In this document: positions 20,011 to 42,157 of the stretch, in pieces
How positions within the stretch are numbered: the first letter of the stretch is position 1
Layout: each line of letters starts with the position of its first letter
Virus record (IMG/VR): IMGVR_UViG_3300009537_000045
Location: 1 to 42,651 of that record
From: a virus
Reading direction: 5' to 3' (one strand)
DNA: 42,651 nucleotides
Notes under the pieces: generated by a model
The model's database searches: none
Seen by the model: the letters and a program-made list of their open reading frames with translations, nothing else
What the model was told of the DNA's origin: nothing
Position numbers and translations under genes: made by a program

Positions 20011-20670
20011 TTACTCTCCTTCGAGTTCCAACGCTTCGTCTTTCCAGTTGCCATTAAACGTGCACTTCGAATAGGTTTCGATCCACGGTCCGCCAATCGT
20101 ATAGTGAAACAAGGAGCTATTCGGATCGGGGATATCGTAGTCTACGAGATGATTCCAATAATTCGGCAGTTCGCCTACCTCATGTTCTTCAAGCCATTTG
20201 AATTGATGAAGATCGAGACCGGGTGCGGTGTTTACATAATCCAGCGTCAACGTTTTGCATTTTTCATTGTTGAACAACATTAGACTCGACCAATTTTTCT
20301 TGCCGTAGTTGATTTGTGCCTTACCTGTCGATTTTACCGTTTCCGACGCGACGTGGTTATGTTTAACCACGCGTAATGACTTATCATCACGCCACGCCCA
20401 AAGTCTGGCAATATCATCGACGCATAACATATCCTGGTCCATGAAAATTGCATGACCCCGGTAATTGCACAAGTAGGGTACCAGAAACCGGGAAATCGAG
20501 AAGTCGCTTGAATCGAGTTCCGATCGATGACGGGTAAAAATCCCCCTTAAGGATTTGCGGTTGATAAACGAAATCGACGGCGTGATCGAGGCACGGTTCT
20601 GAATCGAGTGCGCCAACACATAAGCCGCCTTGGCTTCGGTTTTATCAAATCCGATAAAGACGTTAATCAA
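20011..20670 (-). CDS. glycosyltransferase, GT8-like (219 aa)
   Basis: GT-A type fold signs: N-terminal INVFIGFDKTEAKAAYVLAHSI, DXD motif D78-Q-D80 in HAIFMDQDML, and a late GGPWIETY loop. The TTG start has GGAG upstream and overlaps the ColD-like stop by 8 bases. It should transfer a nucleotide-activated sugar. It is the fourth glycosyltransferase-like protein of the cassette. Confidence 0.78.
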   Translation of the reverse strand: MINVFIGFDKTEAKAAYVLAHSIQNRASITPSISFINRKSLRGIFTRHRSELDSSDFSISRFLVPYLCNYRGHAIFMDQDMLCVDDIARLWAWRDDKSLRVVKHNHVASETVKSTGKAQINYGKKNWSSLMLFNNEKCKTLTLDYVNTAPGLDLHQFKWLEEHEVGELPNYWNHLVDYDIPDPNSSLFHYTIGGPWIETYSKCTFNGNWKDEALELEGE

Positions 20671-21748
20671 GCCAACTCCAATCGATCGGGTAATGATGAT
20701 TACCGATAAAAATGGCGTGCTGATCGATCCAATCGGCGTTTTTTAGCTCTCCATGAATCGAGTAATCGTAATGAACGATTGATTTCGATTTGGTGAAGTT
20801 TCCCGACATGATGGGTCGGTAATCAACCTTACCGTCGAACTTTTTCTTAACCGATTCAAAGTGCGAGATATCGTCCACTATTAGCGCAAAACCAAACCAA
20901 GAGGATTTACCGTGAGTCGGTTCTTTTTGCGTTTTCCATCCGTGAATCTTGCTGACCTCTTTCCATAGATCAGCGTTCTTACGACGCTCATCGATGAATC
21001 TAGGGAGCTTTTCAAGTTGTTTAAGACCGATGGCACACTGAATTTCGGTCGGTCTTACGTTGTAGCCTGGATAGATAAATTCAAAGCTGGACGGTTTGAT
21101 ACCATGTTTATTGCCTTTCGGTAAATGCCGGGTCCAGCCGTGCGAACGTAAACATAATAACATTTCGTAATAAAATTCATCATCGGTCGTTATTAGACCA
21201 CCTTCCATGGTGGAGATGTGGTGGCTGAAAAATGTCGAATGGCTGGACAGTCGTCCGAAATTCCCGGTCTTCATACCGGCGTACTCGGCGCCCATGGCTT
21301 CGCAGTTGTCTTCCAATAATTCCATGGAGGGGAACTCGGTAAAGTCATTGGGATTACCGAGAAGGTTGACAGCTAAAATCAATTCATGACCTTGATAGGC
21401 TTGTTTTAACGCCTGAAGATCGTAGTTCAACGTTTCCCGGTCGATGTCGACAAACTTCAACTTCCAGCCGCATTGAACGAACGGGCTGTAGGAAGTAGAC
21501 CAAGCGACCGCCGGGACGATAACCTCTCCGACCCCTTGGCGAAGTGAAAGAGCGGCGGTCATCAACAGATTGGCCGATGAACCGGAATTCACCGCCACGC
21601 AGTATTTAGAATTTACATAACTAGCGTACTGCTGCTCGAAACTCGATGCTTTCTCGCCCATCGTGAAGTTTCCGGACTTCACCACTTCTTGAATCGCTTC
21701 TATTTCCTCTTGCCCCCAACTCGGGGAGGCCAACGGATGTAAGCTCAT
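20663..21748 (-). CDS. colD: ColD-like PLP-dependent GDP-4-keto-6-deoxymannose 3-dehydratase (361 aa)
   Basis: DegT/DnrJ/EryC1 fold throughout: PLASPSWGQEEIEAI at the N-terminus, VNSGSSANLLM, VPAVAWSTSYSP, LLEDNCEAMGAEY, HGWTRHLPK, PGYNVRPTEIQCAIGLKQLEKLPRF. The usual PLP lysine is replaced by histidine: FFSHHISTMEGG, with H176 aligned to lysine by spacing to EGG. This His substitution defines ColD, which removes the 3-OH of GDP-4-keto-6-deoxymannose instead of transaminating it; perosamine synthase keeps lysine. The GDP-mannose 4,6-dehydratase encoded immediately upstream would supply the substrate. No ColC-type reductase/epimerase is seen. It overlaps that gene by 128 bases. Confidence 0.88.
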   Translation of the reverse strand: MSLHPLASPSWGQEEIEAIQEVVKSGNFTMGEKASSFEQQYASYVNSKYCVAVNSGSSANLLMTAALSLRQGVGEVIVPAVAWSTSYSPFVQCGWKLKFVDIDRETLNYDLQALKQAYQGHELILAVNLLGNPNDFTEFPSMELLEDNCEAMGAEYAGMKTGNFGRLSSHSTFFSHHISTMEGGLITTDDEFYYEMLLCLRSHGWTRHLPKGNKHGIKPSSFEFIYPGYNVRPTEIQCAIGLKQLEKLPRFIDERRKNADLWKEVSKIHGWKTQKEPTHGKSSWFGFALIVDDISHFESVKKKFDGKVDYRPIMSGNFTKSKSIVHYDYSIHGELKNADWIDQHAIFIGNHHYPIDWSWLD

Positions 21749-31748: not shown

Positions 31749-31772
31749 AGGCTCAAATGAATTTTTAATGCG

Positions 31773-31791
31773 AAAACCCGCACGTGACGGG
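31773..31791 (-). terminator. terminator shortly after the putative late promoter (tR'-like)
   Basis: Leftward: CCCGTCACGTGCGGG then TTTT. The stem has 4-5 pairs, with the U-tract opposite 31773-31776. It lies about 25-43 bases after the predicted transcription start and before the first virion-module gene, so read-through would need antitermination. Confidence 0.5.
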
Positions 31792-31803
31792 CTCAGGGGT
31801 GAC

Positions 31804-31826
31804 AATTGCTATAGATTTTAGCAATT
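31804..31826 (-). promoter_or_regulatory. 8-bp palindrome overlapping the late promoter -10 and start
   Basis: AATTGCTA and TAGCAATT form perfect 8-base arms around a 7-base spacer. It overlaps the -10 hexamer and predicted transcription start. It may be an operator, or a hairpin in the very first transcribed bases that causes pausing. Confidence 0.5.
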
Positions 31827-31852
31827 TACCCCCTTGCGCTCCGCGACGTCAA
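31823..31852 (-). promoter_or_regulatory. putative late promoter after the Q-position gene
   Basis: Leftward -35 TTGACG (31852-31847), 18-base spacer, -10 TAAATT (31828-31823). The -35 overlaps the TGA of the zinc-finger gene. Placement after that gene and before the virion module mimics lambda pR'. Confidence 0.5.
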
Positions 31853-34122: not shown

Positions 34123-34316
34123 GGTCAAAAAACGAAAGAACCAGAAACCCACAAGTCCCCCCTTTCCCCCCGAGGGAAGAAAGGGCGCCAATGGCGGAAG
34201 CCCGAAAGAAAAGAAAGAAAAAACAATAGACGACTCGTGGAATAGGCTAGTGTTTTGCCCTTCTGGTATCGCGAGACTTCAGTCAGCCGGGGGCCGAAAG
34301 ACGCACCAGTGCTGAG
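34123..34316. other. gap without a supported gene, part of a doubtful 108-residue ORF
   Basis: A leftward frame 34125-34451 starts behind AGGAGAC but has biased composition (REAGSGIVSGLN ... LLFFLSFLSGFRHWRPFFPRG) and runs antisense through the RNA candidate at 34353-34443. I treat it as a likely shadow. A run of A/G repeats and C-runs occupies 34150-34220. Confidence 0.4.
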
Positions 34317-34346
34317 TTGACGTGAGTTTGAATAACGCGGTAGGAT
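34317..34346 (+). promoter_or_regulatory. promoter for the antisense RNA candidate
   Basis: -35 TTGACG (34317-34322), 18-base spacer, -10 TAGGAT (34341-34346), oriented rightward, opposite to the operon. Followed about 60 bases later by a strong terminator. Confidence 0.5.
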
Positions 34347-34352
34347 GCTCAT

Positions 34353-34443
34353 CGTCGGATTCAGCCCTGACACAATGCCTGATCCAGCCTCCCTGGTCAA
34401 GCGTGGAGAAGCCTCAAGTTGCCAAGCATCTTGGGGCTTTTTT
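34353..34443 (+). ncRNA. candidate ~90-nt small RNA antisense to the leftward operon, possibly C4-like
   Basis: A promoter at 34317-34346 and terminator at 34409-34443 frame an RNA of about 90 nt with no rightward ORF of note. A first hairpin pairs GGATTCAG with CTGATCC (about 34357-34384, one bulged base); the second is the terminator stem. Its general form (two hairpins, phage regulatory region) recalls C4-type antisense RNAs of P1-like phages, but identity was not tested. Being antisense to the operon mRNA, it could control its translation or termination. Confidence 0.5.
34409..34443 (+). terminator. strong rho-independent terminator, rightward
   Basis: AAGCCTCAAG (34409-34418) pairs with CTTGGGGCTT (34430-34439) over 10 pairs including one G-U; the loop can form a further TGC/GCA step. 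Six T follow (34438-34443). No rightward gene precedes it, so it most likely ends a small RNA. Confidence 0.75.
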
Positions 34444-34553
34444 ACGTTCATTTGTCTCCTAACCCATCACGTCCTGCCCTCTCCCGGTCCCGGCAGAGAC
34501 CCCGGATAGTCGCCCTTTGTGAGACTTCCGGCGGAGAGGACAGGCGTCATGTG
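34444..34553. other. gap with no supported gene
   Basis: Contains only a 27-codon leftward ORF (34467-34550) rich in Gly, Pro and Ser without a clear ribosome site. Lies between the small RNA terminator and the small membrane genes. Nothing else recognised. Confidence 0.35.
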
Positions 34554-34634
34554 TCAGAAAAGCCTCGCGAGTATGTGAACCGCGAAGATCGCGATGACGA
34601 CCGCTAGCGCGGTGTAGGCTATGGTGTTGCCCAT
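34554..34634 (-). CDS. very small membrane peptide (26 aa)
   Basis: The ATG at 34634 overlaps the end of the previous membrane gene. Product MGNTIAYTALAVVIAIFAVH then ILARLF is nearly all one transmembrane helix. Supported only by overlap and composition. Confidence 0.35.
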   Translation of the reverse strand: MGNTIAYTALAVVIAIFAVHILARLF

Positions 34635-36366: not shown

Positions 36367-36494
36367 GGGCGTATACTCTCACAACACAAGATGCGGTGCA
36401 AGTACTAAAAGATGCCGCCCGTCGGGAAGTGTTGCAATGACTGTTGTGTTGTGGTACCTTGTATTTGTAAGATCAACCGGCAGAGGAGATAAAC
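36367..36494. promoter_or_regulatory. divergent promoter/operator region
   Basis: Between the HTH gene and the rightward module. CACAACACA (36380-36388) and TGTGTTGTG (36445-36453) are exact inverted copies 56 bases apart. Rightward, TAAGAT (36468-36473) with TTGTGT 18 bases upstream is a candidate promoter whose -35 overlaps the right half-site. Leftward, TTGCAC lies 17 bases from GAGTAT near the HTH start. Confidence 0.5.
36460..36483 (+). repeat. 24-base leader repeat, copy 1
   Basis: TGTATTTGTAAGATCAACCG followed by GCAG, just upstream of AGGAG and the ATG at 36495. An exact second copy lies at 36820-36843 before the next gene. Confidence 0.8.
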
Positions 36495-36819: not shown

Positions 36820-36843
36820 TGTATTTGTAAGATCAACCGGCAG
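36820..36843 (+). repeat. 24-base leader repeat, copy 2
   Basis: Identical over 24 bases to 36460-36483, again directly before the ribosome site (GGAGAC) of a gene. Flanking bases differ, so the repeat itself is under selection or recently copied. Confidence 0.8.
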
Positions 36844-37483: not shown

Positions 37484-37834
37484 ATGACATTCACAGACAA
37501 AGCCTATTGGAACCAAGCGCAACGCGAATACGAGGCCGACGATATGCGAGAAGAAGCAATCAACAAGCGCGCCGCAAAGCTCTACGACTCCACGATGTCA
37601 CGGCTTCTCGAAAACAAGGCCGATGTCGGCGAAATCCTCTATCAACTCGTCGAGTCCGATTGTCTATCCGTGGACGTGGCTTGCGTGTGCCAGCTGATTT
37701 TCGAATCTAAGCGACGTCGCGACCCACTGCCGAGAGAAGCATGCACCGCCTTCGCGGATTCTGTTTACGAATTGGTGGCGCAGCGAATCTACAGACAATG
37801 CAAAGACCAAGCAGAGAAGGAGATAGAGCAATGA
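37484..37834 (+). CDS. hypothetical helical protein (116 aa)
   Basis: ATG at 37484, five bases after the previous stop. Charged helices ([40 protein letters not shown]), then [19 protein letters not shown]. Stop overlaps the pentapeptide gene start. No family recognised. Confidence 0.6.
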
Positions 37835-38454
37835 AATTTGAGATAAAGCATAAAATATCTGGATCGGTTTTATTTTCTTTAGAAACTGAAAATATAAAGC
37901 TGTGTCTGCAAGCAGCAATTGAATCTGGTGCGAACCTGGGCGGTGCGGACCTGGGCGGTGCGAACCTGGGCGGTGCTGACCTGCGCGATGCTGACCTGGG
38001 CGGTGCGAACCTGCGCGATGCGGACCTGCGCGATGCTGACCTGCGCGGTGCGTACCTGGGCGGTGCGTACCTGGGCGGTGCGGACCTGGGCGGTGCGAAC
38101 CTGGGCGGTGCTGACCTGGGCGGTGCGTACCTGGGCGGTGCTGACCTGCGCGGTGCGTACCTGCGCGGTGCGTACCTGGGCGGTGCGAACCTGGGCGGTG
38201 CGAACCTGCGCGGTGCGAACCTGCGCGATGCTGACCTGCGCGGTGCGTACTGGGTAATCAATGCTGGTCAACCAAACGGGTGGGCGTCATTCGGTTGGAT
38301 AAAAGACAAAACGATCATGGTCAAGGTCGGATGTCGAAACTTCACGTTATCGGAAGGGCGCGAATACTGGAAAGACAAAACCGATCGCCGCGAAGTATTA
38401 GCCGCCTTGGATTACATAGAGCGAGTGGCTGAATTACGAAAGTGGCTTAAATGA
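37831..38454 (+). CDS. pentapeptide repeat protein (207 aa)
   Basis: I chose the ATG at 37831 (AAGGAG upstream, ATGA overlap). After a 32-residue cap come 21 perfect A(N/D/Y)L(G/R)(G/D) repeats at residues 33-137, a right-handed quadrilateral beta-helix. The C-terminus ([33 protein letters not shown]) is a recognisable non-repeat cap seen with phage pentapeptide proteins. Such helices can mimic DNA, as MfpA and Qnr do with gyrase, but the target here is unknown. Neighbouring genes are early-type. Confidence 0.88.
37927..38256 (+). repeat. 15-bp tandem repeats encoding pentapeptides
   Basis: About 22 units of 15 bases built on GCGNACCTGGGCGGT, differing at only a few positions. The nucleotide-level uniformity means recent amplification. 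It also opens long shadow ORFs in other frames. Confidence 0.9.
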
Positions 38455-39983: not shown

Positions 39984-40481
39984 ATGACACTGCCAGCACT
40001 GTATGAAATTGCGAATGAATACCGGGAAGCCCTGGAAAAGCTCGCCGATATGGACCTACCACAAGAAGTTATAGCTGACACCTTGGAAGCGGTCACCGGC
40101 AATCTTGAAGTTAAGGCAACCAATGTCGCAATGTTCGCAAGAAATCTGGAATCGTTGGCGGAGTCGATCAAGGAAGCCGAAGCCCAGATGGCGCATCGAC
40201 GTAAAGTGATCGAGAACCGTGCCGATTCCATACGCAGTTACATTAAGACCTGTATGGAGTCGGCCGGTGTTTCGAAGATCGATTGTCCGTATTTCAGTCT
40301 GGCAATCAGAAAGAATCCTCCGGCGGTAATCATTGAAGGTAATGTGCCAAAAGAATACATGCGCTTCCCTGAACCACCGCCACCAACACCGGATAAGACG
40401 GCTATTGCCAAAGCACTAAAAGAAGGCAAGACAATTGAAGGCGCTTATCTATCGCAAGGGACGAGGTTAGACATCAAATAA
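39984..40481 (+). CDS. siphovirus Gp157-family protein (165 aa)
   Basis: LPALYEIANEYREALEKLADMDLP, then AMFARNLESLAESIKEAEAQMAHRRKVIENRADSIRSYIKTCMESAG, is the Gp157 family pattern of coiled helices. FSLAIRKNPPAVIIEG and PPPPTPDKTAIAKALKEGK complete it. Usually found by SSB/recombinase genes. Role poorly known; linked to phage resistance in streptococci. Confidence 0.88.
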   Translation: MTLPALYEIANEYREALEKLADMDLPQEVIADTLEAVTGNLEVKATNVAMFARNLESLAESIKEAEAQMAHRRKVIENRADSIRSYIKTCMESAGVSKIDCPYFSLAIRKNPPAVIIEGNVPKEYMRFPEPPPPTPDKTAIAKALKEGKTIEGAYLSQGTRLDIK

Positions 40482-40809: not shown

Positions 40810-41178
40810 ATGATCGACTACACGAAACCAGTACGCACTGTCGGTACTCCAGGAAGACCGGAAACAAAGCAATCCGTAGAGATTAAGTTTACGGACGGGC
40901 GCGGGGATTACTCAGTAGCCGGATACGTTGGCGACGATGACGTGCTACTAAACTGGATGGCATCTGGAAAGTATGGCGCAGGTAGCAAGGCGGACGATTT
41001 TGACCTCGAAAACTACGAACCTGAACAGTACGAGTGGCGGAATATTTACGAACGCCCTGATGGGACGCGGTACACAGCGCCGACATATGGCGACGATGAC
41101 GGCACACGGTACAGAATCATCCGACACAAACTAATCGGCCGTCGCAAAATCAAACTTGACGCGACGTTTGATGAATGA
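40810..41178 (+). CDS. hypothetical protein (122 aa)
   Basis: AAGGAG precedes the ATG. Acidic beta-rich sequence (VEIKFTDGRGDYSVAGYVGDDDVLLNW) with several Asp/Tyr runs. No family recognised; standing behind a clear ribosome site. Confidence 0.65.
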   Translation: MIDYTKPVRTVGTPGRPETKQSVEIKFTDGRGDYSVAGYVGDDDVLLNWMASGKYGAGSKADDFDLENYEPEQYEWRNIYERPDGTRYTAPTYGDDDGTRYRIIRHKLIGRRKIKLDATFDE

Positions 41179-41181
41179 ATC

Positions 41182-41328
41182 CACCCGCAAGGGTGTTTTG
41201 GGATAGCGGCTGCTGCGAAATGCGCGGACTTAAACCACGTCCCGGTTCCTAAGGGCTTGCCGAAAGGCTCGCGATCCGACCGAACCAGCAAGAATAGGGC
41301 GCCGTAGTAGCGAACGGCCAGCAGCCGC
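41182..41328 (+). ncRNA. candidate multi-branched structured RNA
   Basis: A 176-base gap between two genes contains a perfect 10-pair closing stem, GCGGCTGCTG (41206-41215) with CAGCAGCCGC (41319-41328). Inside are GGAC/GTCC (41226-41229 with 41239-41242), GGTTC/GAACC (41244-41248 with 41282-41286) enclosing a GCC-GAAA-GGC hairpin, and GCCGT/ACGGC (41301-41305 with 41314-41318) stacked on the closing stem. A separate CACCC-GCAA-GGGTG hairpin (41182-41195) precedes it, followed by TTTT. A 25-codon ORF overlapping the upstream stop (41175-41252) is the only coding alternative. No known RNA family recognised. Confidence 0.5.
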
Positions 41329-41354
41329 GATTCTCAAACTGAGTAGGAGGAAAG

Positions 41355-41531
41355 ATGAAAAAGCAGTGGTTTGTCCGTTTCCAAGAGAACGGCGGTGAAT
41401 ACGAAGGCTGTCTACTTGTGACCGCTGAAAAGATTAGGCGTTGTCGTAATGATGGACGAGCATTTATCGCAGACAACGTTCACATACAGATCGATGAAGC
41501 AATAATCGAAATAAGGCGAGCCAGAGACTAG
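41355..41531 (+). CDS. small protein (58 aa)
   Basis: AGGAGGAAAG directly before the ATG. MKKQWFVRFQENGGEYEGCL then EIRRARD; beta-rich and basic. Immediately downstream of the structured RNA candidate, which may be its leader. Confidence 0.6.
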   Translation: MKKQWFVRFQENGGEYEGCLLVTAEKIRRCRNDGRAFIADNVHIQIDEAIIEIRRARD

Positions 41532-41533
41532 CC

Positions 41534-41710
41534 ATGCCCTGCAAATTCATCTGCGACGACGATAAGCCAGTGTGCCGAGAATGCGGCGGAACGGGCGTTA
41601 CTCCCTGTACCTGCGAGGAGGAGTGCGCGATCTATCCGTGCTCCACAAGTGGACCATGCGGTTGTCAAAGCGCCAACCAAACCACCAAGACTGAGAGGAT
41701 GAAATGGTAA
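41534..41710 (+). CDS. cysteine-rich small protein (58 aa)
   Basis: Ten cysteines: PCKFICDDDKPVCRECGGTG, then TPCTCEEECAIYPC and PCGC. The CRECGGTG element resembles a DnaJ-type zinc knuckle. Starts two bases after the previous stop. Confidence 0.55.
   Translation: MPCKFICDDDKPVCRECGGTGVTPCTCEEECAIYPCSTSGPCGCQSANQTTKTERMKW
41687..41700 (+). repeat. AAGACTGAGAGGAT initiation repeat, copy 1
   Basis: Identical 14-base element holding the ribosome site GAGAGG, found again at 41878-41891 and 42051-42064, each before a small gene. Confidence 0.8.
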
Positions 41711-41877: not shown

Positions 41878-41891
41878 AAGACTGAGAGGAT
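41878..41891 (+). repeat. AAGACTGAGAGGAT initiation repeat, copy 2
   Basis: Exact copy, five bases before a GTG start at 41897. Confidence 0.8.
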
Positions 41892-41896
41892 TAACA

Positions 41897-42058
41897 GTGA
41901 ATAGATATTTCCCAGTGGCGTGCCCTAAGTGTGGATGGGAAGGTTCAAGCGAGCATGTTGAAGGCGGCGGTCAGATCGCTGATACAGGAGATTACGACGA
42001 TATGTTCTGCCCGGATTGTTTCAAGAAAGGCGAATTGGTAATTGTAGATGAAGACTGA
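41897..42058 (+). CDS. zinc-ribbon protein (53 aa)
   Basis: GTG start behind copy 2 of the initiation repeat. VACPKCGWEGSSEHV and DMFCPDCFKKGEL give two CxxC knuckles with an acidic tail (VIVDED). Small zinc ribbon. Confidence 0.65.
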   Translation: MNRYFPVACPKCGWEGSSEHVEGGGQIADTGDYDDMFCPDCFKKGELVIVDED

Positions 42059-42064
42059 GAGGAT
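42051..42064 (+). repeat. AAGACTGAGAGGAT initiation repeat, copy 3
   Basis: Exact copy whose first bases encode the end of the previous zinc ribbon and whose end is the ribosome site of the next gene. Confidence 0.8.
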
Positions 42065-42067
42065 GAG

Positions 42068-42157
42068 ATGATGGCCGTCCTAGAATTCGTTCCATACGCG
42101 ATTTTGTATTCTATTATCGGAATTCTGCTCGTGATCTGGGCAAGGAGGATGAGATGA
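42068..42157 (+). CDS. very small membrane protein (29 aa)
   Basis: Start behind copy 3 of the repeat. MMAVLEFVPYAILYSIIGIL then LVIWARRMR, one transmembrane helix with a basic end. Stop overlaps the next start. Confidence 0.45.
   Translation: MMAVLEFVPYAILYSIIGILLVIWARRMR

Follow-up and report, generated by a model that had tools for sequence, protein, structure and literature searches.

A long-range stem in a non-coding gap of a phage operon as a possible cis-acting intercistronic element

Introduction

Does a gene-free gap in the small-gene operon of a tailed phage hold a functional structured RNA, or is it a GC-rich spacer in which two complementary stretches happen to lie? The question was raised by the prediction, made from the letters alone, of a multi-branched RNA in which a 10-pair stem closes over several smaller helices. 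Our answer is a tentative one. We give a probability of roughly 0.4 to a lineage-specific intercistronic element, the stem, that would act in cis on the operon mRNA, and see in the gap no more than a weak candidate for an element of RNA control or processing rather than a demonstrated new RNA.

The window, by which we mean the whole stretch of DNA analyzed, is the complete IMG/VR virus record IMGVR_UViG_3300009537_000045 (42,651 bases, linear class). It belongs to a tailed phage whose structural arm, with the terminase large subunit, is on the minus strand, and whose plus-strand arm of small genes starts at approximately 36.4 kb and contains the gap. A Gp157/Gam-like gene (39984-40481) is located slightly upstream. 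The features that delimit the gap are the following:

41179-41354, plus strand: non-coding gap of 176 nt between a 122-codon ORF (40810-41178) and a 58-codon ORF (41355-41531)
41345-41350, plus strand: Shine-Dalgarno sequence AGGAGG of the 58-codon ORF, outside the closing stem
41175-41252, plus strand: 25-codon ORF MNPPARVFWDSGCCEMRGLKPRPGS, whose ATG overlaps the TGA of the 122-codon ORF (ATGA)

Results

The gap and its closing stem

The gap has a GC content of 58.5%, against 48.8% for the window, and terminates in the strong ribosome site TAGGAGGAAAGATG. The original prediction had placed the element in a gene-free gap directly before a strong ribosome site, and both parts of that description hold: no coding signal was found in any of the six frames of the gap, and the AGGAGG of the 58-codon ORF follows the element. 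Moreover, GCGGCTGCTG (41206-41215) and CAGCAGCCGC (41319-41328) are perfectly complementary and lie 103 nt apart, as had been described. The extent of the stem had been underestimated, since a further 7-bp outer helix continues it across a 2x3 internal loop, and the full closing stem of 10 + 7 bp runs from 41197 to 41338:

41206-41215, plus strand: closing stem, 5' strand GCGGCUGCUG, pairing with 41319-41328
41319-41328, plus strand: closing stem, 3' strand CAGCAGCCGC, pairing with 41206-41215
41197-41203, plus strand: outer part of the closing stem, 5' strand UUUGGGA, pairing with 41332-41338
41332-41338, plus strand: outer part of the closing stem, 3' strand UCUCAAA, pairing with 41197-41203

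Both parts were predicted at every flank length folded, with pair probabilities of 0.95-0.99 for the inner 10 bp and 0.65-0.87 for the outer 7 bp. The complementary arms are thus present in the DNA, they are improbable for this gap, and the 3' end of the stem lies 6 nt upstream of the Shine-Dalgarno site of the 58-codon ORF.

How improbable the arrangement is depends on the frame of reference. Within the phage, the ungapped long-range helix 41195-41339 is unique among 2124 windows of 176 nt, and dinucleotide shuffling of the gap equalled it in only 2 of 2000 trials. Across the genome, local shuffling gives an expectation of 0.15 windows with a stem this good, and 6 of 40 shuffled genomes had one. 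The closing stem is unusual for the gap, yet not astonishing for the genome. A reading in which the gap is a neutral GC-rich spacer, where two complementary 10-nt stretches coincide or a slip has produced a quasi-palindrome, and in which the structure has no function, is nearly as likely as a cis-acting stem: besides the shuffled genomes, it draws on the 16 perfect 10-bp stems (loops up to 200 nt) found in the window against 6.9 expected, on the weak folding of the element described below, and on the lack of conservation in any of the data searched. What speaks against chance is the rarity of the stem among shuffles of its own gap, together with its position in one of about 20 gaps rather than in the mostly coding remainder.

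Interior helices and overall folding

All the helices that had been proposed are found where they were placed, including the hairpin with a GAAA tetraloop:

41182-41195, plus strand: 5' hairpin CACCC-GCAA-GGGTG, pair probability about 0.8
41215-41225, plus strand: small interior hairpin GCG-AAAUG-CGC, at chance level and competing with the tenth pair of the closing stem
41226-41242, plus strand: interior hairpin GGAC-UUAAACCAC-GUCC, at chance level
41244-41286, plus strand: interior stem GGUUC/GAACC enclosing the hairpin GCC-GAAA-GGC (41259-41268), at chance level
41301-41318, plus strand: interior hairpin GCCGU-AGUAGCGA-ACGGC, at chance level

The argument that had been built on "at least three further helices" nevertheless falls, as random sequence of the same composition yields such helices. 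When folding energy was compared with that of dinucleotide-shuffled sequence, the interior (41216-41318) proved less stable than its own shuffles (z +0.86). The element at 41182-41328 reached z -1.03, with 27 of 200 shuffles equally stable; the value was -1.55 with added flanks, -1.76 when trimmed to the outer stem (14 of 200 shuffles equally stable) and -1.73 for the exact gap. In a composition-corrected structure scan of the window, the plus strand at the element ranks 686th of 5668. Altogether, the claim of more structure than chance stands for the closing stem, fails for the interior and is not confirmed for the element as a whole (z between -1.0 and -1.8). The only above-chance feature of the gap is the long-range stem.

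The ribosome site and the 25-codon ORF

The unpaired probability of AGGAGG (41345-41350) ranged from 0.39 to 0.84 with the flank length folded, so that the ribosome site of the 58-codon gene is predicted to be partly to mostly open. This bears on a reading of the gap as a new riboswitch or attenuator leader of that gene, in which the 25-codon ORF or a ligand would choose between the closing stem and a pairing of 41324-41352 with 41370-41396. The ORF starts in the ATGA overlap with the upstream stop and traverses the 5' strand of the closing stem, and folding 41170-41400 gives this pairing with the gene start as the structure of minimum energy, although the closing stem keeps a probability of about 0.95 there. 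With more flank (41170-41531), however, the alternative pairing is not predicted and the Shine-Dalgarno sequence is unpaired at 0.84; the 25-codon ORF has no Shine-Dalgarno site, family match, relatives or coding signal; and the leader has no Rfam match. We consider such a leader improbable.

Comparison with known RNA families

Searching the whole window against Rfam 15 (4227 families) at gathering cut-offs gave no match, and a local search with E up to 10 returned only two chance-level matches. The only leader match at relaxed thresholds was on the opposite strand and scored 16.4 bits against the 34.7 required. Gathering and relaxed thresholds applied to the window, the gap, the corresponding gap of the related phage L082 and a second gap of the window near 34.5 kb yielded nothing credible, which bears out the earlier statement that the element could be matched to no known riboswitch, ribozyme or phage RNA. 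In addition, ARAGORN detected no tRNA or tmRNA cloverleaf, and the gap holds no intrinsic terminator or attenuator of the type of a GC-rich hairpin followed by a T run. A likeness of GCCAGCAGCCGCG to the 530 region of 16S rRNA was dropped, GCCAGCAGCCGCG being one stem arm with no rRNA model match.

The operon transcript might alternatively release a self-cleaving RNA, or a separate small RNA of roughly 145 nt that acts in trans; a stem-closed, self-contained domain that is non-coding and GC-rich relative to the genome would be in keeping with either. No promoter- or terminator-like site around the element rises above background, though, Rfam offers no ribozyme or small-RNA match, and the interior structure is at or below chance; this origin seems very unlikely.

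Search for relatives

A distant-mode search of annotated phages and plasmids with the gap DNA revealed no homologue. Neither of the proteins of the 122- and 58-codon ORFs has relatives in IMG/VR or in annotated phages, and the 122-codon ORF has none in one-per-species genomes or in 40 related records. A covariance model made from a single sequence, that of the window, recovered its own source, but about 2 Mb of loci and 40 whole records of related phages yielded no credible match. Scanning IMG/VR for patterns taken from the closing stem, from two loops and from interior 15- and 16-mers, and one-per-species genomes for the two-loop pattern, returned chance matches or coding sequence only, and the candidates failed the covariance model; these scans are blind to homologues diverged beyond approximately 80-85% identity. 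One covariance-model match, in loci L165-L166 from the closing-stem scan of IMG/VR, was rejected, as it sits in alanine-rich coding sequence. Since no homologue was found, covariation is lacking for the stem.

The same searches bear on whether the repeat acts as DNA, either as a MITE-like inverted-repeat mobile element or as a replication or recombination site. An imperfect inverted repeat of 21 nt flanks the 103 bp, and genes of recombination type (Gp157/Gam-like) are near. Against this, the element is single-copy in the phage with further copies absent from plasmids and annotated phages, no target-site duplication flanking it is seen in the sequence, and it is GC-rich, not AT-rich. A role as a DNA element is thus unlikely, if somewhat less so than a leader switch. 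The most far-reaching reading would make the window the sole known sequence of an orphan class of multi-branched phage RNA, specific to this lineage and serving as a leader switch or a released small RNA; we regard it as just as improbable as the released small RNA itself.

Syntenic gaps in related phages

Two phages, L134 and L082, carry a Gp157 that is 58-61% identical to that of the window, and a GC-rich non-coding gap lies downstream of it in each (1361-1527 in L134 and 5499-5714 in L082). As in the window, these gaps occupy the same part of the operon and precede a Shine-Dalgarno sequence (ACTGAATAGGAG, against ACTGAGTAGGAG in the window). They differ from the window gap in lacking significant similarity, a covariance-model match and a comparable long stem. 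With the ribosome site excluded, 170 of 1000 and 221 of 1000 shuffles were as similar to the window gap. Neither gap has an unusual long stem (291 of 500 and 307 of 500 shuffles as good). Furthermore, a covariance model of the two gaps matches the window at its ribosome site only, and the reverse direction gives no match. The two gaps had been taken up as candidate homologues on the basis of a shared GGCCAGC(A)GCCG and a ACTGARTAGGAG tail, a reading that the shuffle tests and the two-way covariance models do not support; the tail ACTGARTAGGAG shared by all three gaps is the ribosome site. In a third Gp157 relative, Gp157 is followed by coding sequence at the position compared and no such stem is present. 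As significant similarity does not extend beyond the ribosome site, no comparable stem exists and the third relative is coding at this position, these relatives were not counted as homologues.

Between themselves, the L134 and L082 gaps share blocks of 55 nt (94.5% identity) and 38 nt (100%) around middles of 31 and 82 nt, respectively. The two Gp157 proteins have 93% identity, and the DNA that encodes them matches roughly as well as the shared gap blocks do, so that the blocks carry little information on selection. An internal loop of the GAA/GUA type could arise in these gaps from CCGAAGGCGC..GCGCCGUAGG.

Other features of the window

Of all RNA structures predicted for the window, the strongest is on the minus strand at 34452-34618 (z -4.75 and -5.82). 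There, a gene-free gap before UAGGAG is occupied by a long, bent hairpin, CCUGUCCUCUCC...GGAGAGGGCAGG, that carries two sub-hairpins. The stretch 34456-34615 (minus strand) is the foremost of the places that stand far above the element at 41179-41354 in the composition-corrected scan. The structure at 34452-34618 has no Rfam match and no relative in annotated phages or the loci compared, and by these predictions it would be a better structured-RNA target than the gap studied here. Beside it, an intrinsic-terminator-like AAGCCTCAAG..CTTGGGGCTTTTTT (34412-34445, plus strand) lies inside the start of a minus-strand ORF (34125-34451) that may not be a gene. A long hairpin is also found in the gap 31749-31848, where both strands score z about -3.4 and a terminator-like CCCG..CGGGTTTT is close by.

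Several repeats were also observed. The exact 24-nt repeat TGTATTTGTAAGATCAACCGGCAG occurs at 36460-36483 and 36820-36843, each time immediately upstream of the ribosome site of an early gene, and is perhaps a phage-specific promoter or leader. The ribosome-site leader AAGACTGAGAGGATGA recurs at 41687-41706, 41878-41897 and 42051-42070, before three successive small genes. In the early region, 37741-38454 encodes a pentapeptide-repeat protein through 15-nt DNA repeats (19 registers). Finally, an aminotransferase-like gene for a PLP enzyme (20663-21748, minus strand) lies near the terminase gene; three of the related phages have kept it, with identities of about 60%. In an annotated spring-water phage, a putative PLP enzyme overlaps the terminase match.

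Discussion

The reading that we tentatively prefer takes the gap to be a spacer between two genes of a rightward small-gene operon, in which a stem of 10 + 7 bp, almost two helical turns, would close over about 103 nt of weakly ordered sequence. Such a stem could keep the upstream spacer off the ribosome site used by the 58-codon gene, so that AGGAGG just downstream of the stem stays single-stranded, and may in addition be a double-strand processing or stability site of the RNase III-like kind. Its formation in the cell, its action in cis, and its cleavage or effect on translation are what we infer. By analogy with known intercistronic stems, a role in cis on the operon mRNA, insulating the start of the next gene or marking a processing site, would be the most economical function. 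The rarity of the stem, its place in a non-coding gap of a compact operon, the strong ribosome site just after it and the lack of a predicted terminator between stem and site favour it. Weighing against it are the weak overall folding, the chance expectation for such stems across the genome, the lack of homologues, the related Gp157 phages without such a stem, and the varying openness of the ribosome site.

In T7-like phages, RNase III processing stems separate early genes, and in bacterial operons such stems surround rRNA. The stem described here resembles them in being intercistronic, in spanning nearly two helical turns with a small internal loop, in standing beside a ribosome site and in closing a larger domain. 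It differs from them in that it has only 10 + 7 bp and shows no conservation in the data searched. Beside the near-continuous duplex of about 20 bp expected of an RNase III-type stem, 10 + 7 bp across a 2x3 loop is a borderline case. The riboswitch and ribosomal-protein leaders of Rfam likewise place a structured gap directly before a ribosome site, whereas the present gap has no family match at gathering score.

PMC8250186 cautions that structure prediction from a single sequence is not evidence of functional RNA structure, and the numbers obtained for the window agree with that caution. In a phage of 42 kb, chance comes close to producing several small hairpins enclosed by a perfect 10-bp stem. 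If the stem is functional, it would add one to the cis-acting intercistronic stems of phage operons, a finding of modest interest.
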